From assembly GCA_029098225.1 (NCBI GenBank), contig JAQXNX010000024.1, positions 62,001 through 126,000 on the forward strand: a stretch of 64,000 bases of DNA. The letters run 5' to 3'. Below the pieces are notes generated by a model, which had not been told where the DNA came from, did no database searches, and saw only the letters and a list, made by a program, of their open reading frames with translations. Both the position numbers and the translations under genes were made by a program. This DNA is from Spirochaetales bacterium (GTDB lineage Bacteria > Spirochaetota > Spirochaetia > Treponematales > Treponemataceae). Of this stretch, positions 20,421 to 43,467 are shown in pieces (position 1 is the stretch's first letter; the number at the start of each line of letters is the position of its first letter).

Positions 20421-20742
20421 TTTGTCCTCCAATTAATTGATGCAATTATTATGCATTCTTTGTCTTTGGTTTCTGAAATTTTTCATATATTAGCAGATAT
20501 TACGTGTTTATGGAATATAGTTTTATTAAAAACTATTATCTGCATTTAACCCGCCCGAGCGTGGAGTTGTTGCGAAGCAAGTCGCTATGCGACCGAGCGT
20601 TAGTGAGCAACGGAAGGCGACTGAATGAAAGAATTTGCGCCAGATTTATAAAAAAAATAAATTTTTTTTCAAAATTTTTGTCAAAAATTGCAAAGTCGCG
20701 CAGTTATTAATATGCAGTTTTTTTGTTATGGAGGAAGCTCTC
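20421..20742. promoter_or_regulatory. Divergent intergenic region with GC-rich structured element
   Basis: Between the lipoprotein and gspD. From ~20551 to 20625 a GC-rich island breaks the AT background: GTTGC (20569-20573) pairs with GCAAC (20607-20611) around an inner GTCGC-TAT-GCGAC hairpin (20581-20593). It has the GAGCGTTAGTGAGC flavour of REP-like elements. It lies in the gspD leader, 120 bases before the start. Confidence 0.5.
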
Positions 20743-22767
20743 TTGAAAAAAAGTTTTTTGGTTTTTGCTTTATTTTTTTGTAGTCTTTTTACCGGGCGTC
20801 AGATGCTTCTTTTTGCTGAGGATTATTTAAGCTGGAATTTTGATGATTGCGAAATCAAAGATATTTTATATTCTGTTTCGCTTGATTGTGGAATTTCTAT
20901 TGTCTGTGATGATTCTGTAAGTGGAAAAGGAACTCTCCGGTTTGCCGGCAGCGATTTTGAAAATGCTTTTAATGCGTTTTTAAAAGAAAACAGACTTTAT
21001 GTTTGTAAGGAAAAAAATGTCTGGACGGTGTCTAAGGCTCTGGTTAATTATGAAAATGAGGTTTTGAGTCTTAATGCGTACGATTTGACTGCGGAACAGA
21101 TTCTGGAAAAATTTGCACTGGAGACTTCGTGGAGTGTTACTTATGATGTTTTACCAAGTCAGAAAATGTCTGTGCATTTTAAAGGAAGTATTTCTGATGT
21201 AATGGAAAATCTGGGAAAAAGATTTGGAAATTACGAGGTTATTATTGAAGGAAAAAATTGCCATTTTTTGAAAAAGAATGAAAGCCGGAGTGCTGCAGGT
21301 AATTATGGAGTTTTGAATATATTAAAAGATGAAAATGGTTTTTATTCAGTTGATATAAAAGATGCAAGACTTTCTGAAGTTATTGAAATGCTTTTTGAAA
21401 AATTCTGCGAAGAGTGGGATGGATGCGGCTTTTGTCTGCTAGTAAATTCTGATGTGAAAATTTTACGTACAAATTTTACAGAAAAAAATGTAGAAAGTAT
21501 TTTGAAAAAAATTTGCAGTCAAAATGGCTGCACCTGTCTTTTAAAAGACGACGTGTATTATATTTTTGAAGCAGCTGATTCTAAAAATGAAATTTTATCT
21601 GGAAAGCGGGAATGGAAAAAATATGATTTAAAATATGCTGCTGTTCAAGATTTTATTCCTCTGGTTTTAAAAAGAATTGGCATTTTAGAAAATATTATTC
21701 TGCCTGGAAATATGAGCTTCTTATGTAAATGCAGCGATGAAGAAAATGTGCTGATTGAAGAACTGATTCTTGAAGTTGATGTAAAAATGTCTACATATGT
21801 GGTGAATTTAAAATATAAAAAGCCGGCGGAATTTATGGAACATCTTCCGCCGTTTATAGACAGAGCTGCTTTATTTTTTGCTGATGATTCAAAGAGTTTA
21901 TATTTTAAGGGAACTGAAGATTCTTATAAAGAACTTTGTGAACAGATAGAAATATTTGATGTTCCTGAAAAAAGAATTTCTTATGATCTGCTTATTCTGC
22001 AATATGACCAGACAGAGCAGAATGACTGGAGTTCTTCTTTTTCTGCAAAAAGATTGAGCCTTGGAGACAGAAATTCCTTAAGTGCGATGCTTGGATCTGT
22101 AATGGGGTTTAATTTGAATGTTGTTTCTGCTTTTGGTTTAACATTTGCAGCCGAACTTCAAAGTTCCATTGAAAATAATCATACAAAGGTTTTTGCAGAT
22201 ACGACTTTGCATGGGGTTTCTGGCAAGCCAATTAATTTTCAGAATACAAATACTTACCGCTATAGAGATAATAACCTTGATCCAAATACCGGAAAGCCTG
22301 TTTATTCTGGCGTAACAAAAGAAATTATTTCTGGAATAAAAATAGATGTGCTTGGCTGGGTAAGTGGAGATGGAATGATTACGAGTCAGGTAACAGCTTC
22401 TGTTTCCAGACGTGGAACTGATACTTCCAGTTCTACAGGAAATCCTCCACCAACCTCAGAAAAAATAATAACTACTGAAGTATGTGGAAAAAGTGGAGAA
22501 CCTGTAGTTTTAAGCGGCTTGATTTTGAATTCTGAATCTGAAAGTGAAAAGGGAGTTCCTGTTATTTCAAAAATACCTTTACTTGGAAGGTTATTTAAAT
22601 CTAAGTCAGAGAGTAAAGAAAACAGTCAGATGGTCATTTATCTTGTTCCTCATTTAGAAAATGAAAATGAACTGCATACAGATTCTGAAACTGTAAAGCA
22701 TGATTATGAATGGGCAAATGAAAGAATTAAAAAATTTAAGAAGATTGCAGGATGTGAAAATGAATAG
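20743..22767 (+). CDS. gspD: Type II secretion secretin
   Basis: 674 residues from a TTG at 20743, chosen because GGAGGAAG (20730-20737) precedes it and a signal peptide follows directly (KKSFLVFALFFC, cleaved near LLFAED). The N-terminal region has N0/STN-like segments (WNFDDCEIKDILYSVS) and further N-domain repeats. The C-terminal secretin gate is clear: a PVVLSGLIL motif, VPVISKIPLLGRLFKS and MVIYLVPHLE. It forms the outer-membrane ring. A Ser/Thr/Pro-rich loop (DTSSSTGNPPPTSE) sits in the gate region. It overlaps gspE by 8 bp. It could alternatively serve a type IV pilus-like machine, but G below favours type II. Confidence 0.88.
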   Translation: MKKSFLVFALFFCSLFTGRQMLLFAEDYLSWNFDDCEIKDILYSVSLDCGISIVCDDSVSGKGTLRFAGSDFENAFNAFLKENRLYVCKEKNVWTVSKALVNYENEVLSLNAYDLTAEQILEKFALETSWSVTYDVLPSQKMSVHFKGSISDVMENLGKRFGNYEVIIEGKNCHFLKKNESRSAAGNYGVLNILKDENGFYSVDIKDARLSEVIEMLFEKFCEEWDGCGFCLLVNSDVKILRTNFTEKNVESILKKICSQNGCTCLLKDDVYYIFEAADSKNEILSGKREWKKYDLKYAAVQDFIPLVLKRIGILENIILPGNMSFLCKCSDEENVLIEELILEVDVKMSTYVVNLKYKKPAEFMEHLPPFIDRAALFFADDSKSLYFKGTEDSYKELCEQIEIFDVPEKRISYDLLILQYDQTEQNDWSSSFSAKRLSLGDRNSLSAMLGSVMGFNLNVVSAFGLTFAAELQSSIENNHTKVFADTTLHGVSGKPINFQNTNTYRYRDNNLDPNTGKPVYSGVTKEIISGIKIDVLGWVSGDGMITSQVTASVSRRGTDTSSSTGNPPPTSEKIITTEVCGKSGEPVVLSGLILNSESESEKGVPVISKIPLLGRLFKSKSESKENSQMVIYLVPHLENENELHTDSETVKHDYEWANERIKKFKKIAGCENE

Positions 22768-24259
22768 AGCATATGATTTTAAATTGACTCCGGGGTATTG
22801 CCTGTATAACGGTGTGGGAGTGTTCAGTCAAAATGGTTCGAGCATAAAGTTTTTAATTGAGAATCCTGAAAATTCTGTATTAAAAGAAAGATTAAAAAGA
22901 GCTTTTGAAAATTATCTTGAACTGATTCAAAAATATGATGATTGTCCGGAAGCATATAAAAATGAACTTAAAGTAAAATTTGTTGCTGCTACAAGAGCTC
23001 AGATTAGAAAATGTGTCTCTTCATTATATAGTTTTGCAGGTTCCGTTCGTATTCAAAATAATTCTGCGGAACAAAAAGAATCTGATAAGAAAGGAGGTGA
23101 TAGTTCAGAAAAAAAAGATGCTGCTGCAGTTTTATTACTTGATACTATTCTTGACGAAGCTTTAAGACTTGGTGCTACTGATATTCATATAGAAAATAAA
23201 ATTGTGAGATTCAGGATAAATGGAAGATTACAGAAGTTTCAGTCTTTGCAGAGTTCGGTTTATGTAGAATTAGTTCAAAGAATAAAGCTTCTTGGTGATA
23301 TGAACGTTATGGAAAAAAGACGTTGTCAGGACGGGCATTTTTGCTGGGGAAAAAACAATAATGTTTTTGTGCGGGTTTCTACTGCGTGTGTTGTCAGTTC
23401 GAATTATGTTGCAGAAGAGTCGGTCGTGATGAGATTGCTGGATACCAAACGTGTTCCTTTGCTTATAGAAAAACTCGGGTTTAATGAATGTCAGATAGAA
23501 AAAATTTCTTATTTGAAGGAAATGAAAAACGGGTTGATTCTTGTATGTGGGCCTACTGGTGCTGGTAAATCTACAACTGTTGCTTCAATTCTTATGGAAA
23601 TTGACAGAGCATGTAATCATTCAAAAAAGATTGTCAGCCTTGAAGAGCCGCCGGAGTACTATTTGCCTGGAATTACACAGTTTCAGATAAATCAGCATGA
23701 AGGTCTTTCTTATGAAGAGGCTTTGAGCCATGTTTTTAGGCAGGACCCGGATGTAATTATGATTGGAGAAATTCGGGATGAAAATGGTGCCGGTGCCGCT
23801 GTGAGGGCTGCTTTAACCGGGCATCTGGTTTTTGCAACTTTACATACTGGAGGAGTTGGCGAAGCAGTCTTGAGAATGGCAAACCTAGGAATTTCTAAAA
23901 AAGTTCTGGCTTCGGTTTTAAATGGTGTTATTGTTCAGGATTTAAATTTCGTTGATGATTTATACAGCAGAAAGGAAAATTCTGAAAGCCTTGATGTTTC
24001 TGGTGCTGATGGAAAAGTTGATGCTGGTATGTATTCCAGACCGGAACTGCATGCAGATATCGGCTTACCTGGTGAAAAGATGGATTTATATATAGAAGAA
24101 TTCAGCGGTGAAAGTGAAATTGACAGACTCTTTGCTCATTATACAAATTACTCGGATGTATTTGCGAATACAAAAGAAAGATTGAACAAACGATATGTAG
24201 CAGAGAATTTTTCAGTTTCTGCGGCAAAGAAAATCAAAAGGAGTAAAAAAGTATGTTAA
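22760..24259 (+). CDS. gspE: Type II secretion ATPase, atypical C-terminus
   Basis: 499 residues starting at ATG 22760 inside the end of gspD. The core ATPase is intact: LVCGPTGAGKSTTVASI (Walker A), SLEEPPEYY (Asp box), FRQDPDVIMIGEIRD (Walker B) and GHLVFATLHTGG (His box). It energises pseudopilus assembly. Beyond this the protein departs from GspE: the usual QRL element is replaced by VIVQDLNF, and the four-Cys zinc module is missing. A ~100-residue Ser/Glu-rich tail with no family match follows. The N-terminal domain is also short and unlike N1E. Confidence 0.85.
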   Translation: MNRAYDFKLTPGYCLYNGVGVFSQNGSSIKFLIENPENSVLKERLKRAFENYLELIQKYDDCPEAYKNELKVKFVAATRAQIRKCVSSLYSFAGSVRIQNNSAEQKESDKKGGDSSEKKDAAAVLLLDTILDEALRLGATDIHIENKIVRFRINGRLQKFQSLQSSVYVELVQRIKLLGDMNVMEKRRCQDGHFCWGKNNNVFVRVSTACVVSSNYVAEESVVMRLLDTKRVPLLIEKLGFNECQIEKISYLKEMKNGLILVCGPTGAGKSTTVASILMEIDRACNHSKKIVSLEEPPEYYLPGITQFQINQHEGLSYEEALSHVFRQDPDVIMIGEIRDENGAGAAVRAALTGHLVFATLHTGGVGEAVLRMANLGISKKVLASVLNGVIVQDLNFVDDLYSRKENSESLDVSGADGKVDAGMYSRPELHADIGLPGEKMDLYIEEFSGESEIDRLFAHYTNYSDVFANTKERLNKRYVAENFSVSAAKKIKRSKKVC

Positions 24260-25182
24260 AGGAAAAATTTACCAGACAAATTTACCAGCTTTGCGTAAAG
24301 CAGAACATCGATGTGGCAGATAGCCTTGAATTGATGGCAGTAAGAAAAACAGCATCTTTTTTTTCTGAAAAAATTCAGAAAGCAGCTTTGTTTCTTTTAA
24401 ATGAATTAAAGGCTGGCGAAACTTTATCGACAGCGATGAAAACATGTTCTTATATTAATTTTGATGAGGTTTATGTTCAGGCAATTCATTTTGCAGAAAT
24501 GAACGGTAATCTTTTGCAGACTCTTTCGTTTTTGTATGAACGATGTGAACGGCATAAAAAAAATATGAATAAATTAATAGAAGCGTGTACTTATCCGTTT
24601 TTTGTAATGCTTGTTGCGATAATCGGCTGTACAGGACTCATTTATATAAGTTCGGGGAATGGGGCTTTTTTTGCTGGAATAAATGATTTGAACATGAAAT
24701 CGAAGTTAATAGAATATGTAAGTCTTCTGGTTATTGTTTGTGCTCTGGCGATGATTTTTATTATAAAAGCAGTGGGAGAAAATAAAATTTATGAGGCATT
24801 TTATATTTCAGGATTTTTAATAAAGGCTGGAATGAATGTTTCTAATGCGATAGCTTGCGGACAGATTATTGTTGGAGAAGATTCAAGGACAGGAAGAAAA
24901 TTCGGTGAAGCCAGAGAAAAAATTGAATACGGAATGGGATTGGAAGAAGCTTTTTCTATAAACAATAAAATTTCGGATGCTTTGTATTATGCAGACAAAT
25001 CAGGGAGAAAAAGTGATGTGTTTGAAAAAATTGCGGAGCAGATTGGTGAAAAAGATGAAATGAGAAGAAAAATTTGTCTTGAGCTGATAGAGCCTCTTTT
25101 TATTGTAATAACAGGAGCTTTTTTAATGATTCTTGTAATTAATTTTTTTATGCCGTTTTTGAATAACACAAACTGGTTTTAA
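24253..25182 (+). CDS. gspF: Type II secretion inner-membrane platform protein (short F)
   Basis: 309 residues with two GspF/T2SSF repeats: each has a helical cytoplasmic part and membrane segments (PFFVMLVAIIGCTGLIYIS; VSLLVIVCALAMIFIIKAV; a final PLFIVITGAFLMILVINFF). The typical GspF is about 400 residues, so the N-terminal extension is missing here. It is the polytopic platform for the pseudopilus. It overlaps gspE by 7 bp. The end (MPFLNNTNWF) resembles the usual family C-terminus. Confidence 0.85.
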   Translation: MLKEKFTRQIYQLCVKQNIDVADSLELMAVRKTASFFSEKIQKAALFLLNELKAGETLSTAMKTCSYINFDEVYVQAIHFAEMNGNLLQTLSFLYERCERHKKNMNKLIEACTYPFFVMLVAIIGCTGLIYISSGNGAFFAGINDLNMKSKLIEYVSLLVIVCALAMIFIIKAVGENKIYEAFYISGFLIKAGMNVSNAIACGQIIVGEDSRTGRKFGEAREKIEYGMGLEEAFSINNKISDALYYADKSGRKSDVFEKIAEQIGEKDEMRRKICLELIEPLFIVITGAFLMILVINFFMPFLNNTNWF

Positions 25183-25194
25183 ATATCTATTTAT

Positions 25195-25238
25195 ATTGCG
25201 CATTCATGCGCAACCGCTATCGCGGAGATTTAGGAGGA
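25195..25238 (+). repeat. Leader hairpin-SD repeat, copy 2
   Basis: GCGCATTCATGCGC forms one arm pair and CCGC-TATC-GCGG another; GATTT and AGGAGGAG follow directly before the ATG at 25241. This is the fullest copy. Confidence 0.75.
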
Positions 25239-25240
25239 GT

Positions 25241-25348
25241 ATGCAAAAAGTACATCCTTGTACTTTTTGCAACTGCAGATTTTGCCTGTGGCAAAATGCT
25301 GCTTATATCGCGCATCCGTGCGCGACCACTATCGAGGAGGAGAAATGA
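25241..25348 (+). CDS. 35-residue Cys-rich leader ORF overlapping gspG (candidate)
   Basis: An ATG at 25241 sits 3 bases after a strong AGGAGGAG and opens a 35-codon frame whose TGA overlaps the gspG start (ATGA at 25345-25348). Cysteines fall at residues 7, 10, 12, 15 and 27; PCTF-C-N-C-RFC is the dense part. The same DNA holds three strong hairpins, and its 3' end is a leader repeat that doubles as the SD of gspG. This could be a translated leader peptide coupled to gspG, or an accident of repeat insertion. The strong SD and exact overlap favour translation. Confidence 0.45.
   Translation: MQKVHPCTFCNCRFCLWQNAAYIAHPCATTIEEEK
25243..25324 (+). promoter_or_regulatory. Three tandem hairpins in the gspG leader
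   Basis: Hairpin 1: GCAAAAAGTACA (25243-25254) and TGTACTTTTTGC (25259-25270), 12 bp perfect. Hairpin 2: ATTTTGCC (25279-25286) and GGCAAAAT (25290-25297), 3-base loop. Hairpin 3: CGCGCA (25309-25314) and TGCGCG (25319-25324). No T run follows, so a terminator is unlikely; translation control or RNA stability is more plausible. Confidence 0.6.
25305..25342 (+). repeat. Leader hairpin-SD repeat, copy 3
   Basis: CGCGCATCCGTGCGCG followed by a decayed second stem (CCAC-TATC-GAGG) and GAGGAGG, ending just before the gspG ATG. It lies only 67 bases after copy 2. Confidence 0.65.
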
Positions 25349-25902
25349 AAAAAAAGGAGTTTTGCTATGATGGTACAGAATTTCACAATGGAATTACCGG
25401 TGGGGAAGGTTCAATTACATGGAAAAAAAGACTTTTATTATTTAAAAAAGTTTTTTCTAAACGTTCTGAAGGCTTCACATTTATTGAAACTATGGCAGTT
25501 CTTGCGATCGGGGCAGTTCTTTCTGCGGGGAGTATTGTTTCGGCTTCAAGACTTGTTGCCATGGCAAGAAAAAATTCAGCAAGAAATCAGATTTCACAAT
25601 TCAGTTCAGCGCTGCAGACATACTTCCTTGACTGCGGGAGATTTCCGACAACAGAACAGGGAATCAAAGCTTTGTGGGAAAAACCAGTTCTCTATCCAGT
25701 ACCGGAAAACTGGAATGGACCATACATTGACCGTGAGCCGGGAAAAGATCCTTGGGGACGAGATTTTGAATATATCAGTTCTGAAAGTTCCTCTCTGCCG
25801 TCAGAGGTTCCTGCGGGTTTGCCCTTTGTACTTATCTCGTATGGGGCGGATGGACAAATAGGCGGAGAAGGAGAGGGGGTAGATATTGTTTCCTGGAAGT
25901 AA
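25345..25902 (+). CDS. gspG: Major pseudopilin of type II secretion, long leader
   Basis: 185 residues from ATG 25345, with GAGGAGG just upstream. The class III signal is SEG/FTFIETMAVLAIGAVL with Glu at +5, so PilD-like processing and polymerisation are expected. The C-terminal half has the GspG-specific pattern: TYFLDCGRFPTTEQGIKALWEKP, GPYIDREPGKDPWGRDFEY, and an LISYGADGQIGGEGEG calcium-site-like end. The pre-cleavage leader is about 43 residues, far longer than the usual 6-10, and includes a Gly-rich and a Lys-rich part. Internal in-frame ATG/GTG starts that would shorten it are not evident. Confidence 0.9.
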   Translation: MKKKEFCYDGTEFHNGITGGEGSITWKKRLLLFKKVFSKRSEGFTFIETMAVLAIGAVLSAGSIVSASRLVAMARKNSARNQISQFSSALQTYFLDCGRFPTTEQGIKALWEKPVLYPVPENWNGPYIDREPGKDPWGRDFEYISSESSSLPSEVPAGLPFVLISYGADGQIGGEGEGVDIVSWK

Positions 25903-26077
25903 TGGATTTAATCTGGCGGCTTTTATTTTATGTATGGTAGTTTCTCTATGTTTTTCAACATATTTTTCTTACAAAAAAAGTGCAGCTGAAATGGAATTGA
26001 AAAGAAAAGAGGTAATAGATAATCAGATAAATAATGAAAATTTAAAGTTATGCTCCGAAGTTTTACAGGTCTATTAA
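25886..26077 (+). CDS. Small pseudopilin-like membrane protein
   Basis: 63 residues from TTG 25886, overlapping the end of gspG by 17 bp, behind a GAGAGGGGG ribosome site. A GFNLAAFILCMVVSLCFSTY segment followed by an amphipathic charged helix (KKSAAEMELKRKEV) resembles the N-terminal helix of a minor pseudopilin, but the +5 Glu is Ala and no globular domain follows. In gene order it sits where gspH/I/J would be. It may be a stripped-down pseudopilin or a small assembly factor. Function inferred. Confidence 0.55.
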   Translation: MFPGSNGFNLAAFILCMVVSLCFSTYFSYKKSAAEMELKRKEVIDNQINNENLKLCSEVLQVY

Positions 26078-26116
26078 TGTAAACAGTTTCGGGTGAAATA
26101 AAAAAATCATTTACAT

Positions 26117-26185
26117 ATTGATGATGAAATCAGTTAGTTATTGATAATGAAATCAGTTAGTCATTGATAATGAAATCAGTTAGTG
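26117..26185 (+). repeat. Three tandem 23-bp repeats
   Basis: Three head-to-tail copies of ATTGATAATGAAATCAGTTA plus GTN at 26117-26139, 26140-26162 and 26163-26185. Copy 1 has a G for A at one site; the last base differs in each. They lie between two small genes, without spacers, so they are not CRISPR. Confidence 0.9.
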
Positions 26186-26233
26186 GCACCCGACCAATTA
26201 TTTGTGGCGGAGAAAAAATATAGAGGATGTGAT

Positions 26234-26584
26234 TTGAAAATTATAAATTTATTGTTTTCAATTTTATTATGCAGTTCTTTATTTTTGCTGATTGAATCTG
26301 GAATTTATACGGGACTGAAGCTTGATAATTATTGCAAAAAAATTCAAAGAATTAATGATATGAATTTTTTTATTTATTCAAGTTTTAAGAATACATGTAA
26401 CGGTAATGGATTTTCATCTTTGGAAGAATGGCAGAAAAACTGTAATGCAATGTGGAATCTTTCTTATATCGGATTTTGCCCTGCAGATGATTTTATGAAT
26501 TATGAGAATAATAATCAAAAAATTATGTATGGAATGTGGATTTTTGAAGATGAAAAAAAAGAAGTTTATTGCATTATAAATTAA
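26234..26584 (+). CDS. Small single-span protein of the gsp cluster
   Basis: 116 residues. I start it at TTG 26234 with AGAGGATG just upstream; an upstream in-frame ATG at 26183 lies in the tandem repeat and lacks an SD. One N-terminal hydrophobic helix (LLFSILLCSSLFLLI) is followed by a small, Cys- and Trp-containing domain. The size and layout resemble ComGF/GspJ-like minor pseudopilins, but there is no Gly/Phe cleavage site or Glu5. Cysteines (four in the soluble part) suggest disulfides in the periplasm. Confidence 0.55.
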   Translation: MKIINLLFSILLCSSLFLLIESGIYTGLKLDNYCKKIQRINDMNFFIYSSFKNTCNGNGFSSLEEWQKNCNAMWNLSYIGFCPADDFMNYENNNQKIMYGMWIFEDEKKEVYCIIN

Positions 26585-26608
26585 ACTTTGCGTTCAATAA
26601 GCTGCAAT

Positions 26609-26653
26609 ATTGCGCATCCATGCACAACCGCTACCGCGGAAAATTTAGAGGAG
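26609..26653 (+). repeat. Leader hairpin-SD repeat, copy 4
   Basis: GCGCATCCATGCAC, then CCGC-TACC-GCGG, AAAATTT and AGAGGAG, directly before the ATG at 26658. Confidence 0.7.
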
Positions 26654-26657
26654 AAGA

Positions 26658-27929
26658 ATGGGAAATATGTTGAAAAAGGAAGAGTATGAATTTTATAAAA
26701 TACCTTTTCCTGTAAAAAAGCTTCTTGAAAAAAAACGAAAAAAATTCTTTTATTCTGAACTTGAAAAAAGACATCCATGTTTTTCCAGCCTATGTGCATT
26801 TGATTATAAATTTAAGCTTGGAAAACGGGGAATGGAATCGGATGTAATTGTTATGAATCGTCTGAAACTTGCGGAAATGAAAAAGCAGCCTGGATTTAAA
26901 GGTGTTTCGATTCCGGAATTTAAAAGAAGATTTTTTGTTCCTAAAAAAAATCAGCAGATTATTCTTTTTATTTTGTTTTTGATTTTCTCTGTATTATCCA
27001 TTTTTTTTATCAGATTATATAAAAATAAGCACACAGAAAATTTTCTGATTAATTCTGAAATTGAAAATTTAGTTTTATCCGAAAATCTTAATTCTGATTT
27101 AGAAGAAATTAAAAATGAAAAAGATTATCTAAGTCTTGAAAAAGAAATTCTTGATACGGTGAATTATTCCGGAGGAAAAATTAATTCTTTTGAATGGAAG
27201 CTTTCAGATGGTTATGAATCAGTTAATGCTTCTATAGAGAATATGTATCCTGAAAGACTTGATAAAATCAATTCAGATTATTTTTTTAATTCAAGAATAA
27301 TATATAAAGTTTCAGTCCCATTTTTTACTATTGAAGCAAGAAAAAGAATTCCATTTACAGAATCATTTTCATCAGAAGAAAATAAACTTGATGGACAAAT
27401 AAATATATCAGAAGCTGTTTCTGTGGATGAATATAAAAACAGCTTATTGAAGGAAATTCGGAATTTATTTTTTGAATACGAGGATTGTAATTTATGTCTG
27501 CAGGAAGAGAATCCAGGAAAAAATGAATTTAATTTCTTGCTCAGTAAACAGAATAATTTAGCAAAAGATTTTTTTACTAAGGTTAATCAAATTTGTCATG
27601 CCTGTAATTTTTTTGTTTCTGGTTTTTCTTTAGAAAGCAAAGATGAAAAATTTTTTCAGATACAACTTTCTTTTTGTCTATATAACGAATCCTTCAGTTC
27701 ATCTTTTATAAAATCAAATTTTATAGATGATTTGATTCATAATCTGGATATATTCGGATTTATAAGTATAGAAGATAAACCGGTTGTAAAAGAAAGGTTA
27801 ATTGTTGAAAAAAATCCTGTAGACGATTCAGATACTGTTATAAAAATAGGTGAAGTTAAATATAAAAACGGGAGAAAGAAAACTTATTATAAAAATAAGG
27901 AGGGAAAAATTATTAGTATTGAAAATTAA
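26658..27929 (+). CDS. Bitopic membrane protein, possible GspL/M substitute
   Basis: 423 residues, unknown family. Topology: ~100 basic cytoplasmic residues, one membrane segment (IILFILFLIFSVLSIFFI, ~residues 96-115), and ~300 extracytoplasmic residues rich in Glu, Asn, Ser and Phe with a Lys-rich end. This in-out layout, and its place after the pseudopilin genes, are like GspL or PilN/PilO proteins that link the cytoplasmic ATPase to the periplasm. No sequence motif confirms this. The start has GAGGAG 5 bases upstream, supplied by leader repeat copy 4. Confidence 0.6.
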   Translation: MGNMLKKEEYEFYKIPFPVKKLLEKKRKKFFYSELEKRHPCFSSLCAFDYKFKLGKRGMESDVIVMNRLKLAEMKKQPGFKGVSIPEFKRRFFVPKKNQQIILFILFLIFSVLSIFFIRLYKNKHTENFLINSEIENLVLSENLNSDLEEIKNEKDYLSLEKEILDTVNYSGGKINSFEWKLSDGYESVNASIENMYPERLDKINSDYFFNSRIIYKVSVPFFTIEARKRIPFTESFSSEENKLDGQINISEAVSVDEYKNSLLKEIRNLFFEYEDCNLCLQEENPGKNEFNFLLSKQNNLAKDFFTKVNQICHACNFFVSGFSLESKDEKFFQIQLSFCLYNESFSSSFIKSNFIDDLIHNLDIFGFISIEDKPVVKERLIVEKNPVDDSDTVIKIGEVKYKNGRKKTYYKNKEGKIISIEN

Positions 27930-35963: not shown

Positions 35964-35997
35964 TACAAGTTGGAAAACTATATTTTTGGAGTTTTTT

Positions 35998-37785
35998 ATG
36001 ACAGAAAAAAAAGAACAAAAACAAATGTCTACAAAGAAAAAGGCTAGAAAACTGTTTTTGGGAATGCTTGGACCTCTTCTTATGATTACCATAGGGGCAT
36101 GTTCATTTTTCTATTTTATGTCCAATACAATTATTGAATATTACATGAAGGCAGAATTGCGAGCTTCAGTTGAAAGAATAAATTCTAAGATTCTTGAAAA
36201 AATGGATCCTATTTCTGTAAATATAGAAGACTTTAAGAATTTTGGAGCTCTTTCTGATGATAACCAGATTTTGGGTGCACTTACTTCTATTTTTGCCCAG
36301 AATCTTAAATATTCATCTTCATTTTATTATGCAGAAGCAAAAAAAATCTCTCAGGGAGGCTTCTTTGCAGACAGCAGCGGATGGATTCCCGAAGCTGGTT
36401 ATGAACCAATGGAACGAGACTGGTATAAAGGAGCGGTAAAAAATAAAGATTCCTTCTATTATACTAATCCATATGTTGATGTTCAGACAGGTGATCTTTC
36501 TGTAACAGTTTCACGAGCTGTTTTTGATGAAAAAGGAAATATTAAGGGTGTAGTTGCCTGTGATATTCTTATGAAACAGCTTATTTCAATTCTAGATGAA
36601 ATTAATGTTTCGCCAAACGGTACTATCAATCTTATAAACGAAAATGGTCTTTATATGACTAATAAAGATTCTTCAAAAATTATGAAGGCCAGTTATTTTG
36701 ATGAAACCTTATATAAGGGCGATCTTAAAGAATGGATGAATGGTGAATTAAAAAGTGAATTGGATAAAAAGAATTACTATGCAGTATGTAAAATCGGTTA
36801 TTCACCATGGTACATTGTTGCAGAAGGTCCAACAATAGATTTTAAAGGTAAACTTTCTAATATAATTCTTACTTTTGAAATTTTCCTTATCTTATTTAGT
36901 ATTTTTGCTTCTATTATGAATATAAGAACAATTAAAAAAATGCGCAAAGATGAGCAGATGCTCGGTGCTTCTTTGTTTGAAGAAACCCAGACCCTTGTTG
37001 TTGCTGCAAAAGAAAATGCTGCAACCAGTCAGGATCAAAGTGCTGCTGTAAAAGAGATTGTAGCTACAATGGAAGATTCCAATGAACTGTCTGAAAGTAT
37101 TGCTTCAAAAATACGGGATGTTTCCAGAGTTGCAGAAAAAACTTCCTCTGATGTTGCAGATGGAGTTTCTTCTATAGAAGAAAATGTTGCTCAGCTTCAT
37201 GCAATTTTTGATGCAAATCAGCAGACTATAGACGGAATGAAAATTCTTAGTGATAAAATAGAAAGCATCTGGGATATTGTAACTTTAATTAATAATGTTG
37301 CTGATCAGGCAAAGATTATTGCATTTAATGCCGAACTGGAAGCTTCAAGTGCAGGTGAAGCCGGAAAGAGCTTTAGAATTGTTGCAAACGAAATCCGGCG
37401 TTTGTCTGATGGTATTATTGATGGAACAAAAGAAATTAAGGAAAAGATTACAGAAATTCAACATTCTTCTGACTCGTTAATTCTTGCTTCTGAAAGCGGT
37501 ACAGAAAAAATAAATGCCGGTTATGAAAATGCTAAAAATCTTGGTGAACGTTTTGCAAGCATAAAAGACAGCGCAGAAATTACAGCAAGTTCTGCAAATG
37601 ATATTACAGATATAATTCAGCAGCAGACAAATTCTTCTGAACAGATTCTTATTGCATTAAAACAGATTTCTGCTGGTGTAGAAAATTTCGCCGTTGCTAC
37701 AGATAATATTTCGCTTTCTTCTGAGCATATTAGAAAAATGTCTGAAGAATTAAATAATACTGTAAAGAGCAGTGATCAGAAATAA
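35998..37785 (+). CDS. Chemoreceptor with divergent signalling tip
   Basis: 595 residues from ATG 35998 (TTGGAG upstream). TM1 is about residues 18-40; a dCache-like sensor follows (WIPEAGYEPMERDWYKGAV, PYVDVQTGDLSVTVSRAVFD, GVVACDILMKQL); TM2 is ~285-310. No HAMP domain is evident. The cytoplasmic coil carries a tip reading ADQAKIIAFNAELEASSAGE, then GKSFRIVANEIRRLSD, in place of the usual QTNLLALNAAIEAARAGE and GFAVVA. This variant tip is likely to recruit its own CheW and CheA-like proteins, coded directly after it. First gene of the operon. Confidence 0.88.
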   Translation: MTEKKEQKQMSTKKKARKLFLGMLGPLLMITIGACSFFYFMSNTIIEYYMKAELRASVERINSKILEKMDPISVNIEDFKNFGALSDDNQILGALTSIFAQNLKYSSSFYYAEAKKISQGGFFADSSGWIPEAGYEPMERDWYKGAVKNKDSFYYTNPYVDVQTGDLSVTVSRAVFDEKGNIKGVVACDILMKQLISILDEINVSPNGTINLINENGLYMTNKDSSKIMKASYFDETLYKGDLKEWMNGELKSELDKKNYYAVCKIGYSPWYIVAEGPTIDFKGKLSNIILTFEIFLILFSIFASIMNIRTIKKMRKDEQMLGASLFEETQTLVVAAKENAATSQDQSAAVKEIVATMEDSNELSESIASKIRDVSRVAEKTSSDVADGVSSIEENVAQLHAIFDANQQTIDGMKILSDKIESIWDIVTLINNVADQAKIIAFNAELEASSAGEAGKSFRIVANEIRRLSDGIIDGTKEIKEKITEIQHSSDSLILASESGTEKINAGYENAKNLGERFASIKDSAEITASSANDITDIIQQQTNSSEQILIALKQISAGVENFAVATDNISLSSEHIRKMSEELNNTVKSSDQK

Positions 37786-37815: not shown

Positions 37816-38289
37816 ATGGCAGCAGATATGGAAAGCATTAAGGCTGATGAAGCAAAAATGAAAAAAATTAATTCTCTCTATGAAGGCGAAGATTCTTATC
37901 TGATTTTTAGTATAAACGGAGAACGTTATACATTGAAGGGATCTGGAATTTTACAGATTATTAATGAGCCAAAAATCAGAAAGCTTCCTTTTGTGCCTTC
38001 TTTTGTTGAAGGAATTATAAATGTTCATGGAACCCCATATGCGGCTGTAAATACCCTGAAAATGAATAACGAAAAAAATTCAAATGTTTCTGGGACAAAC
38101 TATATTGTTTTAAAAAGAGATGATGATCAGTTTTCTATTCATGTTTCAAACATCGAGCTTTTTTTTGAACCGGAAAAAGAAGACATTCAGGAAGGAAAAG
38201 TAAAATACAAGCAGAATTTTATTCCTATTTTTGAAACTGATAAAATTGAAGAAAAGCTTGTAAAAGCTTTATCTGGAGAAGTGCTATGA
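37816..38289 (+). CDS. CheW-like coupling protein
   Basis: 157 residues. After a ~25-residue N-terminal extension it has the CheW SH3-like fold: YLIFSINGERYTLKGSGILQIIN, IRKLPFVPSFVEGIINVHGTPYAAVNTLKM and NYIVLKRDDDQFSIHVSNIELFF. It should link the receptor to the CheA-like protein. It lies 30 bp after the receptor gene and overlaps cheB by 4 bp. The ribosome site is weak. Confidence 0.85.
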   Translation: MAADMESIKADEAKMKKINSLYEGEDSYLIFSINGERYTLKGSGILQIINEPKIRKLPFVPSFVEGIINVHGTPYAAVNTLKMNNEKNSNVSGTNYIVLKRDDDQFSIHVSNIELFFEPEKEDIQEGKVKYKQNFIPIFETDKIEEKLVKALSGEVL

Positions 38290-39311
38290 CAAAAATTGAT
38301 GTACTTATTGTAGATGATTCCGCAATTGCCAGAGGCATTTTTGAAAAAGCATTTTCGAATACTCAGGAGTTTAATGTTGTTGCTTCTGTATCTAATGGTA
38401 GAAAAGCAGTGGATTTTTGTAAAATGCATCATGTAGATTTAGTCGTTTCTGATTGCGAGATGCCTGAAATGGATGGAATTCAAGCGGCAGAAATTATTGC
38501 AAATGAGTTGAAAATTCCTGTTTGCCTTTATTCAGATGATGAATCTTATATGACGAAAGCTGTTCAATCTGGAGCGATTTTATTTAAGCTGAAACCTTCT
38601 CTTTCTTCATACAGCGCAAAAGCTTTTGAGCTTTTTATTATGGATATTAAAAAGGCTGTAGAAGAAAATAATATAACTCATAAAATTCACGAAAAAAAAT
38701 CAGACGATTCTCCTTATATAAGAAGGGGAGCTGTAAAAATTCTTTGTATTGGAGCTTCTACTGGCGGGCCTTCTGCTGTAGAAAAAGTATTAAAGGGTCT
38801 TGGAAGAAATTTTCCTCTTCCAATTTTATATGTTCAGCACATAGACGAAGGCTCAGACAAAAAAATGGTTGAATGGTTTAATTCTGTTTGTCCGAACATT
38901 CCAATGCATCTTGCAAAAGATGGTGAAGTTGCAAAAAGAGGGCATGCATACATGGCACCTGCAGAAACTCATCTTCTTATAGATTATGTAAAAGATGATT
39001 ATCTTCCTGTCTTAAAATTATCTGATGAGGCACCTGAACATTTTTTACGTCCTGCTGTAAATAAACTTTTCCGTTCGGCTGCTGAAAATTATAAATCTTC
39101 TTGTCTTGCAATTCTTCTTACAGGAATGGGAAGAGACGGCGCTGAAGGGTGTAAAGAAATTGTAGATAAAAAAGGTATAACAATTGTTGAAGATAAATCG
39201 ACCTGTGCGGTTTTTGGAATGCCGGCTGCAGCAATCGAACTGAATGCTGCAAAATTTGTGCTTCCAAGAGATGAAATTGCAGGAAAAATTCTTTCTTTTA
39301 TGGAGAATTAG
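38286..39311 (+). CDS. cheB: Protein-glutamate methylesterase/response regulator
   Basis: 341 residues: a receiver (IDVLIVDDSAIARGIF, phospho-Asp in VVSDCEMPEMDG, Lys in LFKLKP) and a CheB methylesterase domain with the catalytic triad Ser (GASTGGPSA), His (YVQHIDEGS) and Asp (TGMGRDGAEG). It demethylates the receptor for adaptation. A receiver that can be phosphorylated implies a histidine kinase, yet none is in this operon. Overlaps cheW by 4 bp. Confidence 0.93.
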   Translation: MTKIDVLIVDDSAIARGIFEKAFSNTQEFNVVASVSNGRKAVDFCKMHHVDLVVSDCEMPEMDGIQAAEIIANELKIPVCLYSDDESYMTKAVQSGAILFKLKPSLSSYSAKAFELFIMDIKKAVEENNITHKIHEKKSDDSPYIRRGAVKILCIGASTGGPSAVEKVLKGLGRNFPLPILYVQHIDEGSDKKMVEWFNSVCPNIPMHLAKDGEVAKRGHAYMAPAETHLLIDYVKDDYLPVLKLSDEAPEHFLRPAVNKLFRSAAENYKSSCLAILLTGMGRDGAEGCKEIVDKKGITIVEDKSTCAVFGMPAAAIELNAAKFVLPRDEIAGKILSFMEN

Positions 39312-39327
39312 TTTTTTGGAATTAATT

Positions 39328-40164
39328 ATGGAAAAAGAAACAATAGAAAGAATTCTTGAATTACTGACTTTCTCAACCGGAATTATTCCACGTGATTCTC
39401 ATAAAACAGGTATTATAAATTTTCTTGAAAAGCGTTTTACCGAACTTGGGATAAAAGAAAAAGACTATTACAATCTTTTGATTTCAGATTCGGAAGAAAT
39501 GGATTTATTAATAAACAGTGCAACCGTTAACGAAACTTATTTTTTTAGGGAAGAAAAGCAATTCCAGCTTTTAAAAGAAAAAATATTTCCTTCAATAGAA
39601 TTAAAGACAGATGAAAAAAAACTGGATAACGATACTTTAAGAATCTGGAGTGCGGCATCTTCTTCTGGTGAAGAAATTTATTCTCTTTATCTTTTAGCAG
39701 TTTCTATGGGATTTAAAACAGAATGTACGGCAAGCGATATAAACACCCAGATGCTGGAGCGTGGACGAATCGGAAAATTTACAAAGCATTCGGCAAGAAA
39801 TGTAGATGGCTCCTTGTTTCATTATCTTCTGGAGCCTTCAAAAAAAGAAGATGGTTCATTTGAATTTGAAAAATCAATTATTGAAAAAATTTGTTTTAAA
39901 AGAATAAATCTTTCCAGGTTAAAAGATTTTCCTCAAAATCAGAATTTAATCTTTTTAAGAAATGTATTTATTTATTTTGAGTTAAAAACAAGAAAAAAAA
40001 TCCTTGAAAAAATTGTAGAAGAAAGTCTTGCTCCGGGCGGATATTTATTTGTTTCCATGAACGAAATTGCTTCTATAGATAATTCAATAATTCCGAAAAA
40101 TCTGGAAAAGAAATTTGACGGAAAAGTATTTTATTTCCAAAAGACGGAAGGAGGGAATGCTTAA
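39328..40164 (+). CDS. cheR: Chemotaxis protein methyltransferase
   Basis: 278 residues from ATG 39328 (TTGGAA upstream). CheR motifs: an N-terminal helical domain with TVNETYFFREEKQF, the SAM-binding RIWSAASSSGEEIYSLYLLA, ASDINTQMLERGRIG, and LIFLRNVFIYFELKTRKKI (the NVLIYF motif). It methylates the receptor's glutamates. It overlaps the next gene by one base (TAATG). Confidence 0.93.
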   Translation: MEKETIERILELLTFSTGIIPRDSHKTGIINFLEKRFTELGIKEKDYYNLLISDSEEMDLLINSATVNETYFFREEKQFQLLKEKIFPSIELKTDEKKLDNDTLRIWSAASSSGEEIYSLYLLAVSMGFKTECTASDINTQMLERGRIGKFTKHSARNVDGSLFHYLLEPSKKEDGSFEFEKSIIEKICFKRINLSRLKDFPQNQNLIFLRNVFIYFELKTRKKILEKIVEESLAPGGYLFVSMNEIASIDNSIIPKNLEKKFDGKVFYFQKTEGGNA

Positions 40165-41696
40165 TGAAAAAAGAAAGTGTTTCTCCAGAATTAATAAAAA
40201 CTTATCTTTTGGAAACGCGCTCGGTTATTTTTCGAGTAAGAAACTGTCCATGGAATTTTAAAAAAATTCTTCCAACGCTTAGAATGTCTAAAGATAATGC
40301 AAGACTTTTAGGCTTTAATTCAATTTACAGATTATTTAAATCTCTGGAAGATCTTTATTATGCATTAATAGCAAATGATATTTTACTTACAGATAATCTT
40401 CAGAATTTGATTATAGAAGTTGCAGATAAACTTTATGAATGCTGTAATGTACTTGAAGAAAATCCTGAAGCAATAAATTTCTTAGATGTTCATGCATATC
40501 TTCTTTATTGTGACAAAGCTCTTGCAGGAGAAATTTTTGAATCAAAGAATCTTGTTAATCCTAAAAAATCAATTCCTGTAGCAAAGTCAGCCCTTGAAAA
40601 ACCAATTGAAAAGAATGAAGTTATAAAGGTTAATTCAAGTAATCTTGTAAGTGTAATCAATATGCAGGAAGAAATGATTGCTCATACTTATATTATAGGT
40701 AATCAGATTGATCTTTTAAAAGATGCAATTTTTGAAAATGATACACATTCGTTAAAAGAAATACATAAGCTTCTTTCTAATGATTCTCAATCCTTGCAGA
40801 ATAATCTTTTAATTCTTCACGACCAATTTATTTCGCTTATGCACGATGATTCTTTCCTTAAAAATCATCAGGAATTTCAGGGCTTCTTTATCTATTCAAA
40901 TAGTGAAAAATATCTTATTCCTTCTCAATTTATTTTTGACGTAATATGTGCAAATCCTCTTTCTTATATTACAAAACAGAATCAGAAATATGTTGTTTAC
41001 GAACGGGAAGACGACAGCAGATCAAATTCCGAAAGTGAAGAAATTCCTGTTTATTCTCTTTCTTCTCTTTTGCCAGGTAAAATTGTAAAAAACAAAAATG
41101 TACTTGATACAATTCTTCTTGCAGATTATCAGTCGCAGAAGATTGGAATTATTGTTGATTCAATGCAGAAATTTGTTTCAATCATCAAAAAGCCAATGCC
41201 AAATTGCTTTGCAAATTTCAAGCTTTTTCAGGGGATTGCTTTTGATGAAAAATACGATATGATTCCTGTTTTATATCTTCCGGAGATTATGAAGAAATTC
41301 AGGGCACAGCGTGGTTACGATATTAAAAAATTCGAAGCCTATACAAAAAAGCATATTAATAAAATTCTTATTGTTGATGACTCTAAAACAACGAGGGAAA
41401 TTCAACATACAATTCTTTCCGGAAACGGCTTTTTAGTTGATGAAGCTGTTGACGGAATTGATGCAATGGAAAAAATCAGGAAAAAACAATTCGACTTAAT
41501 TTTAAGTGATGATGCCATGCCGCGAATGAATGGAGATATTTTCCTAGAAAATGTTCGTCGAATGGAAAATTATGCAAAAGTTCCTGTAATTGCTATTTCT
41601 GAAAATCCATTAAAAAATGCTGATGCTTTTGTTTGTAAAGCAGATTTTTCGCGTGAAGAACTTATTCAAAAAATAAATGAGGTGTTACATGAGTAG
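40164..41696 (+). CDS. CheA-like scaffold without kinase domain: degenerate HPt - CheW-like - receiver
   Basis: 510 residues. Residues ~8-105 follow the CheA P1 (HPt) pattern, but the phospho-histidine motif HTLKGSA is replaced by PTLRMSK (Pro at residue 37). A helical stretch at ~165-235 (INMQEEMIAHTYIIGNQIDLL) resembles the P3 dimerisation helices. Next comes a CheW/P5-like domain (~240-390: FQGFFIYSNSEKYLIPSQFIFDVI, IPVYSLSSLLPG, KIGIIVDSM). There is no ATP-binding domain: no N box, DxGxG or G2 box is seen. The last ~125 residues are an intact receiver (ILIVDDSKTTREIQ, LSDDAMPRMNGD, CKADF). So it keeps the array-building parts of CheA and loses phosphotransfer. It could also be seen as a long CheV. 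Confidence 0.78.
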   Translation: MKKESVSPELIKTYLLETRSVIFRVRNCPWNFKKILPTLRMSKDNARLLGFNSIYRLFKSLEDLYYALIANDILLTDNLQNLIIEVADKLYECCNVLEENPEAINFLDVHAYLLYCDKALAGEIFESKNLVNPKKSIPVAKSALEKPIEKNEVIKVNSSNLVSVINMQEEMIAHTYIIGNQIDLLKDAIFENDTHSLKEIHKLLSNDSQSLQNNLLILHDQFISLMHDDSFLKNHQEFQGFFIYSNSEKYLIPSQFIFDVICANPLSYITKQNQKYVVYEREDDSRSNSESEEIPVYSLSSLLPGKIVKNKNVLDTILLADYQSQKIGIIVDSMQKFVSIIKKPMPNCFANFKLFQGIAFDEKYDMIPVLYLPEIMKKFRAQRGYDIKKFEAYTKKHINKILIVDDSKTTREIQHTILSGNGFLVDEAVDGIDAMEKIRKKQFDLILSDDAMPRMNGDIFLENVRRMENYAKVPVIAISENPLKNADAFVCKADFSREELIQKINEVLHE

Positions 41697-43467
41697 TAAA
41701 ATTGTTGTCTTAGAAAGTTCTGCTACAATTCAAGGTCTCATAAAAGAAAAACTTCGTAACAGTGATGTTGAACTGAGTTTTGAAGATAAAGGTTTAAAGC
41801 TTCTTGTTTCGGTTTATAACTCGGTTCCTGCTGCTATTTTAATTAATTCCAGCAGCGTAAATCCAAAGGCTTCTCTGCTTGTAAGACTTATAAAAAATAT
41901 TGAAAAATTAAGAAAGGTTCCTGTAGGGGTTTATACAACCGGCGAATTTGTTTTTGAAGAACAGTTCAGAAGAACCTGTGGGGCAGATATTTTCTTCAGA
42001 CTTTCAAAAAATAATATTAAGGAAAAAACTGATTCACTTTTAGATTTAATAGGTAAACGTCTCGCGGTTCCTCTTCAGAGCGATCTTGTAAAAAATGGAC
42101 TTTCGGATTCAATTTTTAATTTAATACAGAATTTAAATTCTTTTGAAAACCTTATTCAGTCTTTTTTAAACTTAATTGCAAAAACCTGCAGAATTCCAGC
42201 AACAGCTTTATACATTGATGATCCTGATGGACCAAAATCTTATTACATATGCGGTAACAACTTCACTAAAAAAGAAGAATCTGATTTTTTAAAAGTTTGT
42301 ACAACCGATTTCGAAGCAGCATTTTCGGACAGCAATAGCGCAAGCATTATTACCAAAAAATTAAAAAACACAGATATACAGGAAATTTTTCATACAAATG
42401 ATATTCCTCTTTCTGCATACCAGAATTTCTTTTTAGTTTCTAAAGATAATAAAAAAATTGGAAGCGTTCATGTAATTAAGGAAGGAACTTTTTCTTCTGC
42501 CCAGCTTGACCTTATAAATTTTGCAGTTGAATCCTTCAGTATGCTTATGGATAACGCGCTGATGATTAAAGAAAAATTGAAGTTTGAAAGAAACATTCGT
42601 AAAGCATTCAGTCGTTTTGTTCCTGAACAGATTATTGATGAACTTGTAATGAATGCAGAGCGGGAAGCAAAGGTTGGCGTTGGAGAAAAACGTGATGTTG
42701 CTATTTTATTCAGCGATATACGTTCGTTTACAAATATCAGCGAAAGAAATCAGCCAGAAACTATTGTTGCATTTTTGAACAGATATTTTACAATAATGTG
42801 TACAATTATAAAAAAGCATGGCGGCACTGTAGATAAATTTATTGGCGATGCAATTATGGCTTTGTTTGGTGCTCCTGTAAGTTACGAGGATAATGCACGC
42901 AGGGCAGTTGCTGCCGCCTATGAAATGCGCGAAGCTCTTGCGTCTGTTCCTATAGAGGATTTGTATCTGCCGGATGGAATGAAGTTTGATATTGGAATTG
43001 GAATTCATTATGGAGATGTAATTGTAGGTTCAATCGGTTCAGAAGATAAAACTGATTATTCTGTAATTGGTGATAATGTAAACCTTGCTTCCCGACTTGA
43101 AGGATTAACAAAAACCTATGGTGCAAAAATTCTTGTAAGTCAGGCAGTAAAGGATGAAATCAAGCCGGATGAATTTATTTTCAGACTTCTGGATGATGTA
43201 AAAGTGAAGGGCAAAAAAACTGCTGTTCCTATTTACGCAATAGACAGAAATATAGAAGAATTTTCTGGAATTTACAGAGATTCTTATAAGAAGGGGCTTG
43301 CACTTTATAAGCAGGGAATTTTCAATCTTGCTCTTGAATATTTTACAAAAGCAATTACTGAAAGTCCTGATGATAAGGCGTCAAAATTAATGAAGAGTCG
43401 CTGTGAAGAATTTATAAAAAATCCACCCGAAAACTGGGATGGAGCAATAGCTTTTACAACAAAATAA
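41689..43467 (+). CDS. Class III adenylate cyclase with pseudo-receiver and GAF-like domain
   Basis: 592 residues from ATG 41689 (GAGGTG upstream), overlapping the previous stop by 8 bp. Residues 1-120 have receiver shape, but the acidic pair is ES (IVVLESSAT) and the phospho-Asp is Asn (AILINSSSV), so it should not be phosphorylated. A GAF-like region follows (~140-290). The cyclase domain (~310-490) has both metal aspartates (ILFSDIRSFTNISE; FIGDAIMALFGAP), the Lys of VDKFIGD and Asp of TDYSVIGD that select ATP, and the NLASR transition-state pair. The C-terminal ~70 residues are TPR-like. It probably makes cAMP as the output of the operon. Confidence 0.88.
   Translation: MSSKIVVLESSATIQGLIKEKLRNSDVELSFEDKGLKLLVSVYNSVPAAILINSSSVNPKASLLVRLIKNIEKLRKVPVGVYTTGEFVFEEQFRRTCGADIFFRLSKNNIKEKTDSLLDLIGKRLAVPLQSDLVKNGLSDSIFNLIQNLNSFENLIQSFLNLIAKTCRIPATALYIDDPDGPKSYYICGNNFTKKEESDFLKVCTTDFEAAFSDSNSASIITKKLKNTDIQEIFHTNDIPLSAYQNFFLVSKDNKKIGSVHVIKEGTFSSAQLDLINFAVESFSMLMDNALMIKEKLKFERNIRKAFSRFVPEQIIDELVMNAEREAKVGVGEKRDVAILFSDIRSFTNISERNQPETIVAFLNRYFTIMCTIIKKHGGTVDKFIGDAIMALFGAPVSYEDNARRAVAAAYEMREALASVPIEDLYLPDGMKFDIGIGIHYGDVIVGSIGSEDKTDYSVIGDNVNLASRLEGLTKTYGAKILVSQAVKDEIKPDEFIFRLLDDVKVKGKKTAVPIYAIDRNIEEFSGIYRDSYKKGLALYKQGIFNLALEYFTKAITESPDDKASKLMKSRCEEFIKNPPENWDGAIAFTTK

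Follow-up and report, generated by a model that had tools for sequence, protein, structure and literature searches.

A conserved CheA paralogue without kinase domain or phosphorylatable histidine, encoded in chemoreceptor-adenylate cyclase gene cassettes of rumen Treponema

Introduction

In chemoreceptor arrays, CheA is considered the obligatory output. The Pil-Chp chemosensory system of P. aeruginosa has a kinase, ChpA. Pil-Chp raises adenylate cyclase activity via the response regulator PilG, on CyaB (PMC12632253). A HATPase_c domain is present in every one of 13,673 surveyed CheA sequences (PMC10782961). As CheA proteins without a kinase domain, our literature searches returned R. sphaeroides CheA3 and, besides it, only a few sequences like it, the handful of P1+P5 proteins named in a 2010 survey (PMC2829493). 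CheA3, a CheA homologue lacking P4 (PMC6829392, PMC2829493), retains the phospho-histidine, consists of P1 and P5 only, with a long linker between them that contains a phosphatase domain, and is partnered by the kinase CheA4. CheV proteins combine a CheW-like fold with a receiver carrying an acceptor Asp; they enter the baseplate and are phosphorylated by CheA (PMC12691637). No description of a class of kinase-less CheA proteins linked to a cyclase was found in our searches, which covered open-licence papers.

Here, we describe such a protein, encoded in a 64,000-nucleotide stretch (positions 62,001-126,000 of contig JAQXNX010000024.1; hereafter, the window) of a Treponemataceae genome assembly, and compare it with its relatives in the same genus.

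Results

Domain organization of CheAΔP4

The open frame at 40164..41696 (+ strand) encodes a protein of 510 residues, in which the only Pfam matches are a receiver and, weakly, a CheW domain. Judged by its sequence, the protein is a CheA paralogue with the domain order pseudo-P1, P3, P5, REC, from which the whole P4 kinase domain (~190 residues) is missing. We refer to the gene as cheA-deltaP4 (CheAΔP4) and to this kinase-less CheA-REC paralogue as the S-type or short form. The nearest relatives, termed K1, are kinase-bearing CheA-REC proteins of ~700 residues (P1-P3-P4-P5-REC; for example, loci L018, L052 and L120) with an HTIKG motif and ATP boxes, in which Pfam detects Hpt (2.4e-12) and HATPase_c (7.2e-18), with CheW and REC also strong. 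CheAΔP4 is homologous to K1 over P1, P3, P5 and REC, with about 43-52% identity in P5-REC. A full-length AlphaFold model (pTM 0.38) gives no domain placement, which we count against the explanation favoured below, and receiver and CheW matches dominate a full-length fold search.

The N-terminal region (residues 8-121; 40185..40526, + strand) is a P1-derived helical bundle, that is, a pseudo-HPt domain without its histidine. Profile-profile comparison with P1 of the kinase-bearing paralogues gave a probability of 99.8% (E 1.5e-29), and a profile of 35 homologues matched solved CheA P1 domains (2ld6, E 2.5e-6; 1tqg, E 3e-5). Modelled alone, the N-terminus adopts a P1 bundle (mean pLDDT 92.8, pTM 0.87), which VIA superimposed on Salmonella CheA P1 (1i5n) with Z 16.8 and rmsd 2.2 over 117 residues, and on R. 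sphaeroides CheA3 P1 with Z 16.7. A designed repeat protein (6ff6) scored as high (Z 17.0), and the claim of P1 homology therefore rests on the sequence profile. Foldseek ranked CheA P1 domains on top, but with a best E of only 1.5e-3; given such weak E-values, P1 identity was judged by VIA and profile search. An HPt-like N-terminus homologous to P1 had been proposed from the sequence by eye, and both the profiles and the predicted structure bear this out.

The same original prediction had the phospho-histidine replaced by Pro37 (40272-40274), and here its register was off by three. When the alignment is anchored on DNARLLGF/KGNARMLGY, FKKILPTLRMSKDNARLLGF aligns with LARLLRDVHTIKGNARMLGY, which places Arg40 (40281..40283, + strand) in the histidine column and Pro37 opposite the Arg that precedes the His by three residues (R-D-V-H). 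Both an alignment that included 18 kinase-bearing paralogues and the profile alignment rule out Pro37 as the replacement. Neither is the proline conserved: its column holds Arg in 22 of the 35 short-form sequences, Lys in five and Pro in three (the window protein and two others), besides other residues. The loss of the histidine itself is general. The P1 fold is present, and the column reads Ser (25), Cys (3), Arg (2), Glu (2), Lys, Thr or Phe (one each), with His in none of the 35.

P1 is followed by a P3-like dimerization hairpin (residues 158-225; 40635..40838, + strand), which AlphaFold models as two long helices (158-191 and 194-225) and which matches P3 of the K1 paralogues at profile level (96%, E 2.5e-9). 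By this likeness, CheAΔP4 is predicted to form a dimer. At the junction that follows (residues ~222-238; 40827..40877, + strand), the kinase-bearing paralogues have 193 residues of P4 between P3 and P5 vs about 15 in CheAΔP4. The N, G1 and G2 kinase boxes are absent, and HATPase_c is not among the Pfam matches of any of the 35 short-form members. P5, the CheW-like domain (residues 237-383; 40872..41312, + strand), carries an insertion of ~11 residues relative to the kinase-bearing paralogues; Pfam CheW is matched in all 35 members (E up to 0.1), and top Foldseek matches include CheA P4-P5 structures (2ch4, 4jpb). The P3-like helices, the CheW-like domain and the missing ATP-binding boxes were thus all correctly read at the outset. 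As kinase domain and P1 histidine are both absent, CheAΔP4 cannot act as a CheA kinase. Nor does it resemble one half of a CheA3-type split kinase, in which a P1 histidine is phosphorylated by a P4-bearing partner: CheAΔP4 has lost the histidine, has kept P3 and has no split-kinase partner in its cassette, where we identified no P4-bearing partner gene.

The receiver (residues 399-508; 41358..41687, + strand) retains its acceptor, Asp449 (41508-41510), and Lys492. Asp406, Asp449 and Lys492 are kept in 35 of 35 sequences, and position 405 is Asp or Glu. Helix α4, nine residues, is deleted near 41619 and in every other copy with a C-terminus, and the switch Thr/Ser is Ala or Gly in 15 of the 35. 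The receiver had been called intact, which holds for the Asp and Lys but not for α4. Loss of α4, part of the usual signalling face, and the Ala/Gly at the switch position count against the explanation we favour. The invariance of the acceptor site suggests phosphorylation of the receiver from outside the cluster.

By Pfam content (CheW plus Response_reg), and in having a CheW-like domain and a receiver with an acceptor Asp, CheAΔP4 is the same as CheV. Unlike CheV, it is not confined to these two domains: it has the P1-derived bundle and the P3 hairpin, its receiver lacks α4, it is homologous over its full length to kinase-bearing CheA-REC, and it groups with CheA-REC in a tree built without CheV sequences. 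CheAΔP4 is most likely CheV-like in its working but built from a CheA.

A fixed cassette ending in a class III adenylate cyclase

The CheAΔP4 gene is the fifth in a tight run of six genes on the + strand, MCP-CheW-CheB-CheR-CheAΔP4-cyclase. The run comprises a dCache chemoreceptor (35986..37785, with an in-frame ATG at 35998 as the likelier start and the tip KIIAFNAELEASSAGE), CheW (37816..38289), CheB (38286..39311, with receiver Asp and catalytic Ser/His/Asp intact), CheR (39244..40164 as a mechanical ORF, the true start probably being the ATG at 39328), CheAΔP4 and a class III adenylate cyclase (41677..43467) with an N-terminal pseudo-receiver and a C-terminal TPR-like match. From cheW onward the called ORFs overlap by 1 to 68 bases, and co-transcription is therefore probable. 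Elsewhere in the window, a run at 20635-27929 resembles type II secretion/pilus genes (secretin-like, GspE-like ATPase, GspF-like, pseudopilin), and a fragment at 17-1117 looks, by eye, like the last part of an Rhs/YD-repeat protein whose tail is of another type.

The six-gene order recurs in nearly all short-form loci with enough flanking sequence, and the cyclase directly follows the short CheA in all 35 loci long enough to show it. In T. bryantii XBD1002 and one further locus (L115) the cluster is without cheB and cheR, and MCP-CheW-CheAΔP4-cyclase is kept. Across the short-form clusters CheB and CheR have intact catalytic motifs. The receiver Asp of CheB is also retained, other than in four loci with an absent or truncated receiver match: in L104 the CheB match begins no earlier than residue 79, L117 is truncated where its contig ends, and in L097 (T. 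zioleckii, ~7355-7957) and L099 (a sheep rumen MAG, 7429-8031), which are sister species, the methylesterase part matches and the receiver half has no match.

The downstream gene product (Pfam PF00211, 1.7e-30) has the metal Asp pair, the base-selecting Lys/Asp pair and the transition-state Asn/Arg pair of class III cyclases, in motifs (FSDIR, DKFIGD, KTDY, VNLASR) that are conserved in nearly all of 36 sequences; it is, as predicted from these residues, a class III adenylate cyclase with a complete catalytic set. In its pseudo-receiver (41677-42021), Asn replaces the acceptor Asp throughout the 36 short-form clusters that were compared. The K1 cyclases also appear degenerate in their N-terminal receiver.

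K1 clusters share the gene order MCP, CheW, CheB, CheR and the cyclase family with the short-form clusters. Unlike CheAΔP4, K1 has HTIKG, a P4 with N, G1 and G2 boxes and receiver helix α4, and its clusters carry W2, a small conserved gene without Pfam match, between cheW and cheB. W2 is seen in both K1 and K2 clusters (L052:5522-6025, L039:12993-13424, L120:5194-5679); relatives of W2 were not detected in the short-form loci, and W2 may serve the kinase. In the CheW proteins of the kinase-less clusters (37816-38289 in the window; L084-L118), ~15 loop residues of K1 CheW are missing. The window CheW reads NVHG where most have NCRG.

These features bear on whether phosphate is needed at all. 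The receptor-CheW-CheAΔP4 complex might switch the cyclase by conformation alone, with the acid cluster of the receiver serving only Mg binding or folding, a possible but rather unlikely reading in our estimation. It would fit the loss of both kinase and histidine, the missing α4 and the frequent Ala at the switch position, and the pseudo-receiver of the cyclase; the lack of a CheB receiver match in T. zioleckii and its sister species, together with the two loci devoid of CheB and CheR, also weakens the need for phosphate. Hard to explain without phosphate, however, are the invariance of Asp406, Asp449 and Lys492 in 35 divergent sequences and the retention of the CheB acceptor Asp in most clusters.

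Distribution and phylogeny

A search of species genomes yielded 36 short-form loci, of which two represent the halves of a single split gene. The hosts include cultured T. bryantii, T. zioleckii and Treponema sp. C6A8 and JC4, and are mostly ruminant-gut MAGs. The short form is carried by 43 of 200 genomes of the window's rumen Treponema genus. Outside it, a search of the family and a P1-profile search of 393 phylum genomes revealed no short form among the matches listed, in which the open frames were of ~690 residues or more, the length of kinase-bearing forms. In a tree built on P5+REC, the short-form sequences make up a single clade (100/100) that groups with K1 apart from K2 (100/99); monophyly of K1 is weak (77/28), leaving the short form either nested in K1 or sister to it. 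Two genomes have a complete K1 cluster and a short-form cluster 5-6 kb apart (G059, G193), side-by-side arrangements that fit duplication followed by loss.

A flagellar-type CheA was found in nearly all short-form genomes and is the only CheA kinase match in at least seven genomes that are at least 92% complete (G164, G036, G004, G074, G180, G162 and G116). An orphan P4 partner encoded elsewhere was considered and rejected, no CheA-type kinase beyond the flagellar one passing 1e-25 in several near-complete short-form genomes. A third CheA type of 704-732 residues, 42-44% identical to flagellar CheA, occurs in a few genomes (G047:C134, G106:C93, G171:C96, G114:C35, G028:C2).

K1 co-occurs with the short form in several genomes. 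Together with the intact acceptor site and the P5-REC identity to K1, this co-occurrence would suit a decoy or phosphate sink, in which the receiver, with P5 as a competitor, damps flagellar CheA or a paralogous kinase-bearing cluster. We consider such a role improbable, since many short-form genomes have no K1 or K2 match, the MCP tip and CheW of short-form clusters differ from those of other clusters, and the constant linkage to an MCP, CheW and cyclase of its own points to a pathway of its own.

Purifying selection

In close short-form pairs, leaving aside the least diverged one, dN/dS lies at about 0.03-0.09 for P1 and 0.04-0.07 for REC; it is higher in the P1-P3 linker and far below 1 in every folded domain. 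The low values in P1 imply that the pseudo-P1 is maintained, not decaying. In P5 and REC, 22% of columns are invariant. An in-frame stop is present in one locus (L106) and in one genome copy (G131), as expected of a decaying pseudogene or an assembly artefact, but the same architecture without a stop occurs in at least 34 other assemblies. With the low dN/dS of all folded domains and the invariant columns, this refutes decay for the family as a whole, and we regard the pseudogene or artefact reading of the window gene as extremely improbable.

Discussion

The core of the original prediction, a stripped CheA without kinase function in which array-building domains and a receiver are kept, holds, Pro37 and the details of the receiver aside. 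It is in fact stronger than first stated, given the conserved clade and the fixed gene cassette; what had been missed is the link to the adenylate cyclase encoded next to it, which is probably the output.

We favour, at even chances, a reading in which CheAΔP4 is a CheA without its enzyme that has been kept in the array as a dimeric, CheV-like scaffold coupling receptors to the cyclase, with its receiver phosphorylated in trans. An ancestral kinase-bearing CheA-REC cluster (MCP-CheW-W2-CheB-CheR-CheA-cyclase) would have been duplicated in the rumen Treponema lineage, one copy then losing P4, the P1 histidine, the W2 gene and receiver helix α4. The remaining pseudo-P1-P3-P5-REC protein most likely dimerizes via P3, while P5 most likely seats it, beneath the chemoreceptors of its own cluster, in rings of CheW and P5. 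The scaffold would relay the state of the receptors, as tuned by methylation through CheR and CheB, to the neighbouring adenylate cyclase; the pseudo-receiver of this enzyme, which has no acceptor Asp, is a likely docking site. The constancy of the receptor-CheW-cyclase linkage, even after loss of cheB and cheR, argues for such a path, which would lead from receptor via CheAΔP4 to the cyclase and have cAMP as its output. The receiver is most likely phosphorylated by a CheA encoded elsewhere, in most cases the flagellar one, which we suggest as donor because it is the only CheA-type kinase in several near-complete genomes; phosphorylation in trans would merge the chemotaxis state with cAMP output. 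The cassette would thus share with Pil-Chp/CyaB the pairing of a chemosensory system with an adenylate cyclase, and would differ in lacking the PilG route and a kinase of its own.

That a chemoreceptor array with adaptation enzymes drives an adenylate cyclase with neither histidine kinase nor phosphotransfer, conformation alone passing through a dead CheA, strikes us as doubtful. Selection on CheAΔP4 and its adjacency to the cyclase suggest that cAMP is controlled by receptors lacking a kinase of their own. As such proteins look like CheV by Pfam alone, others may be hidden in annotation. With receptors, CheW, usually CheR and CheB, and the cyclase all kept, array structure has here been naturally uncoupled from kinase output, and the cassette allows one to ask directly if a receptor array can drive enzymes besides CheA.
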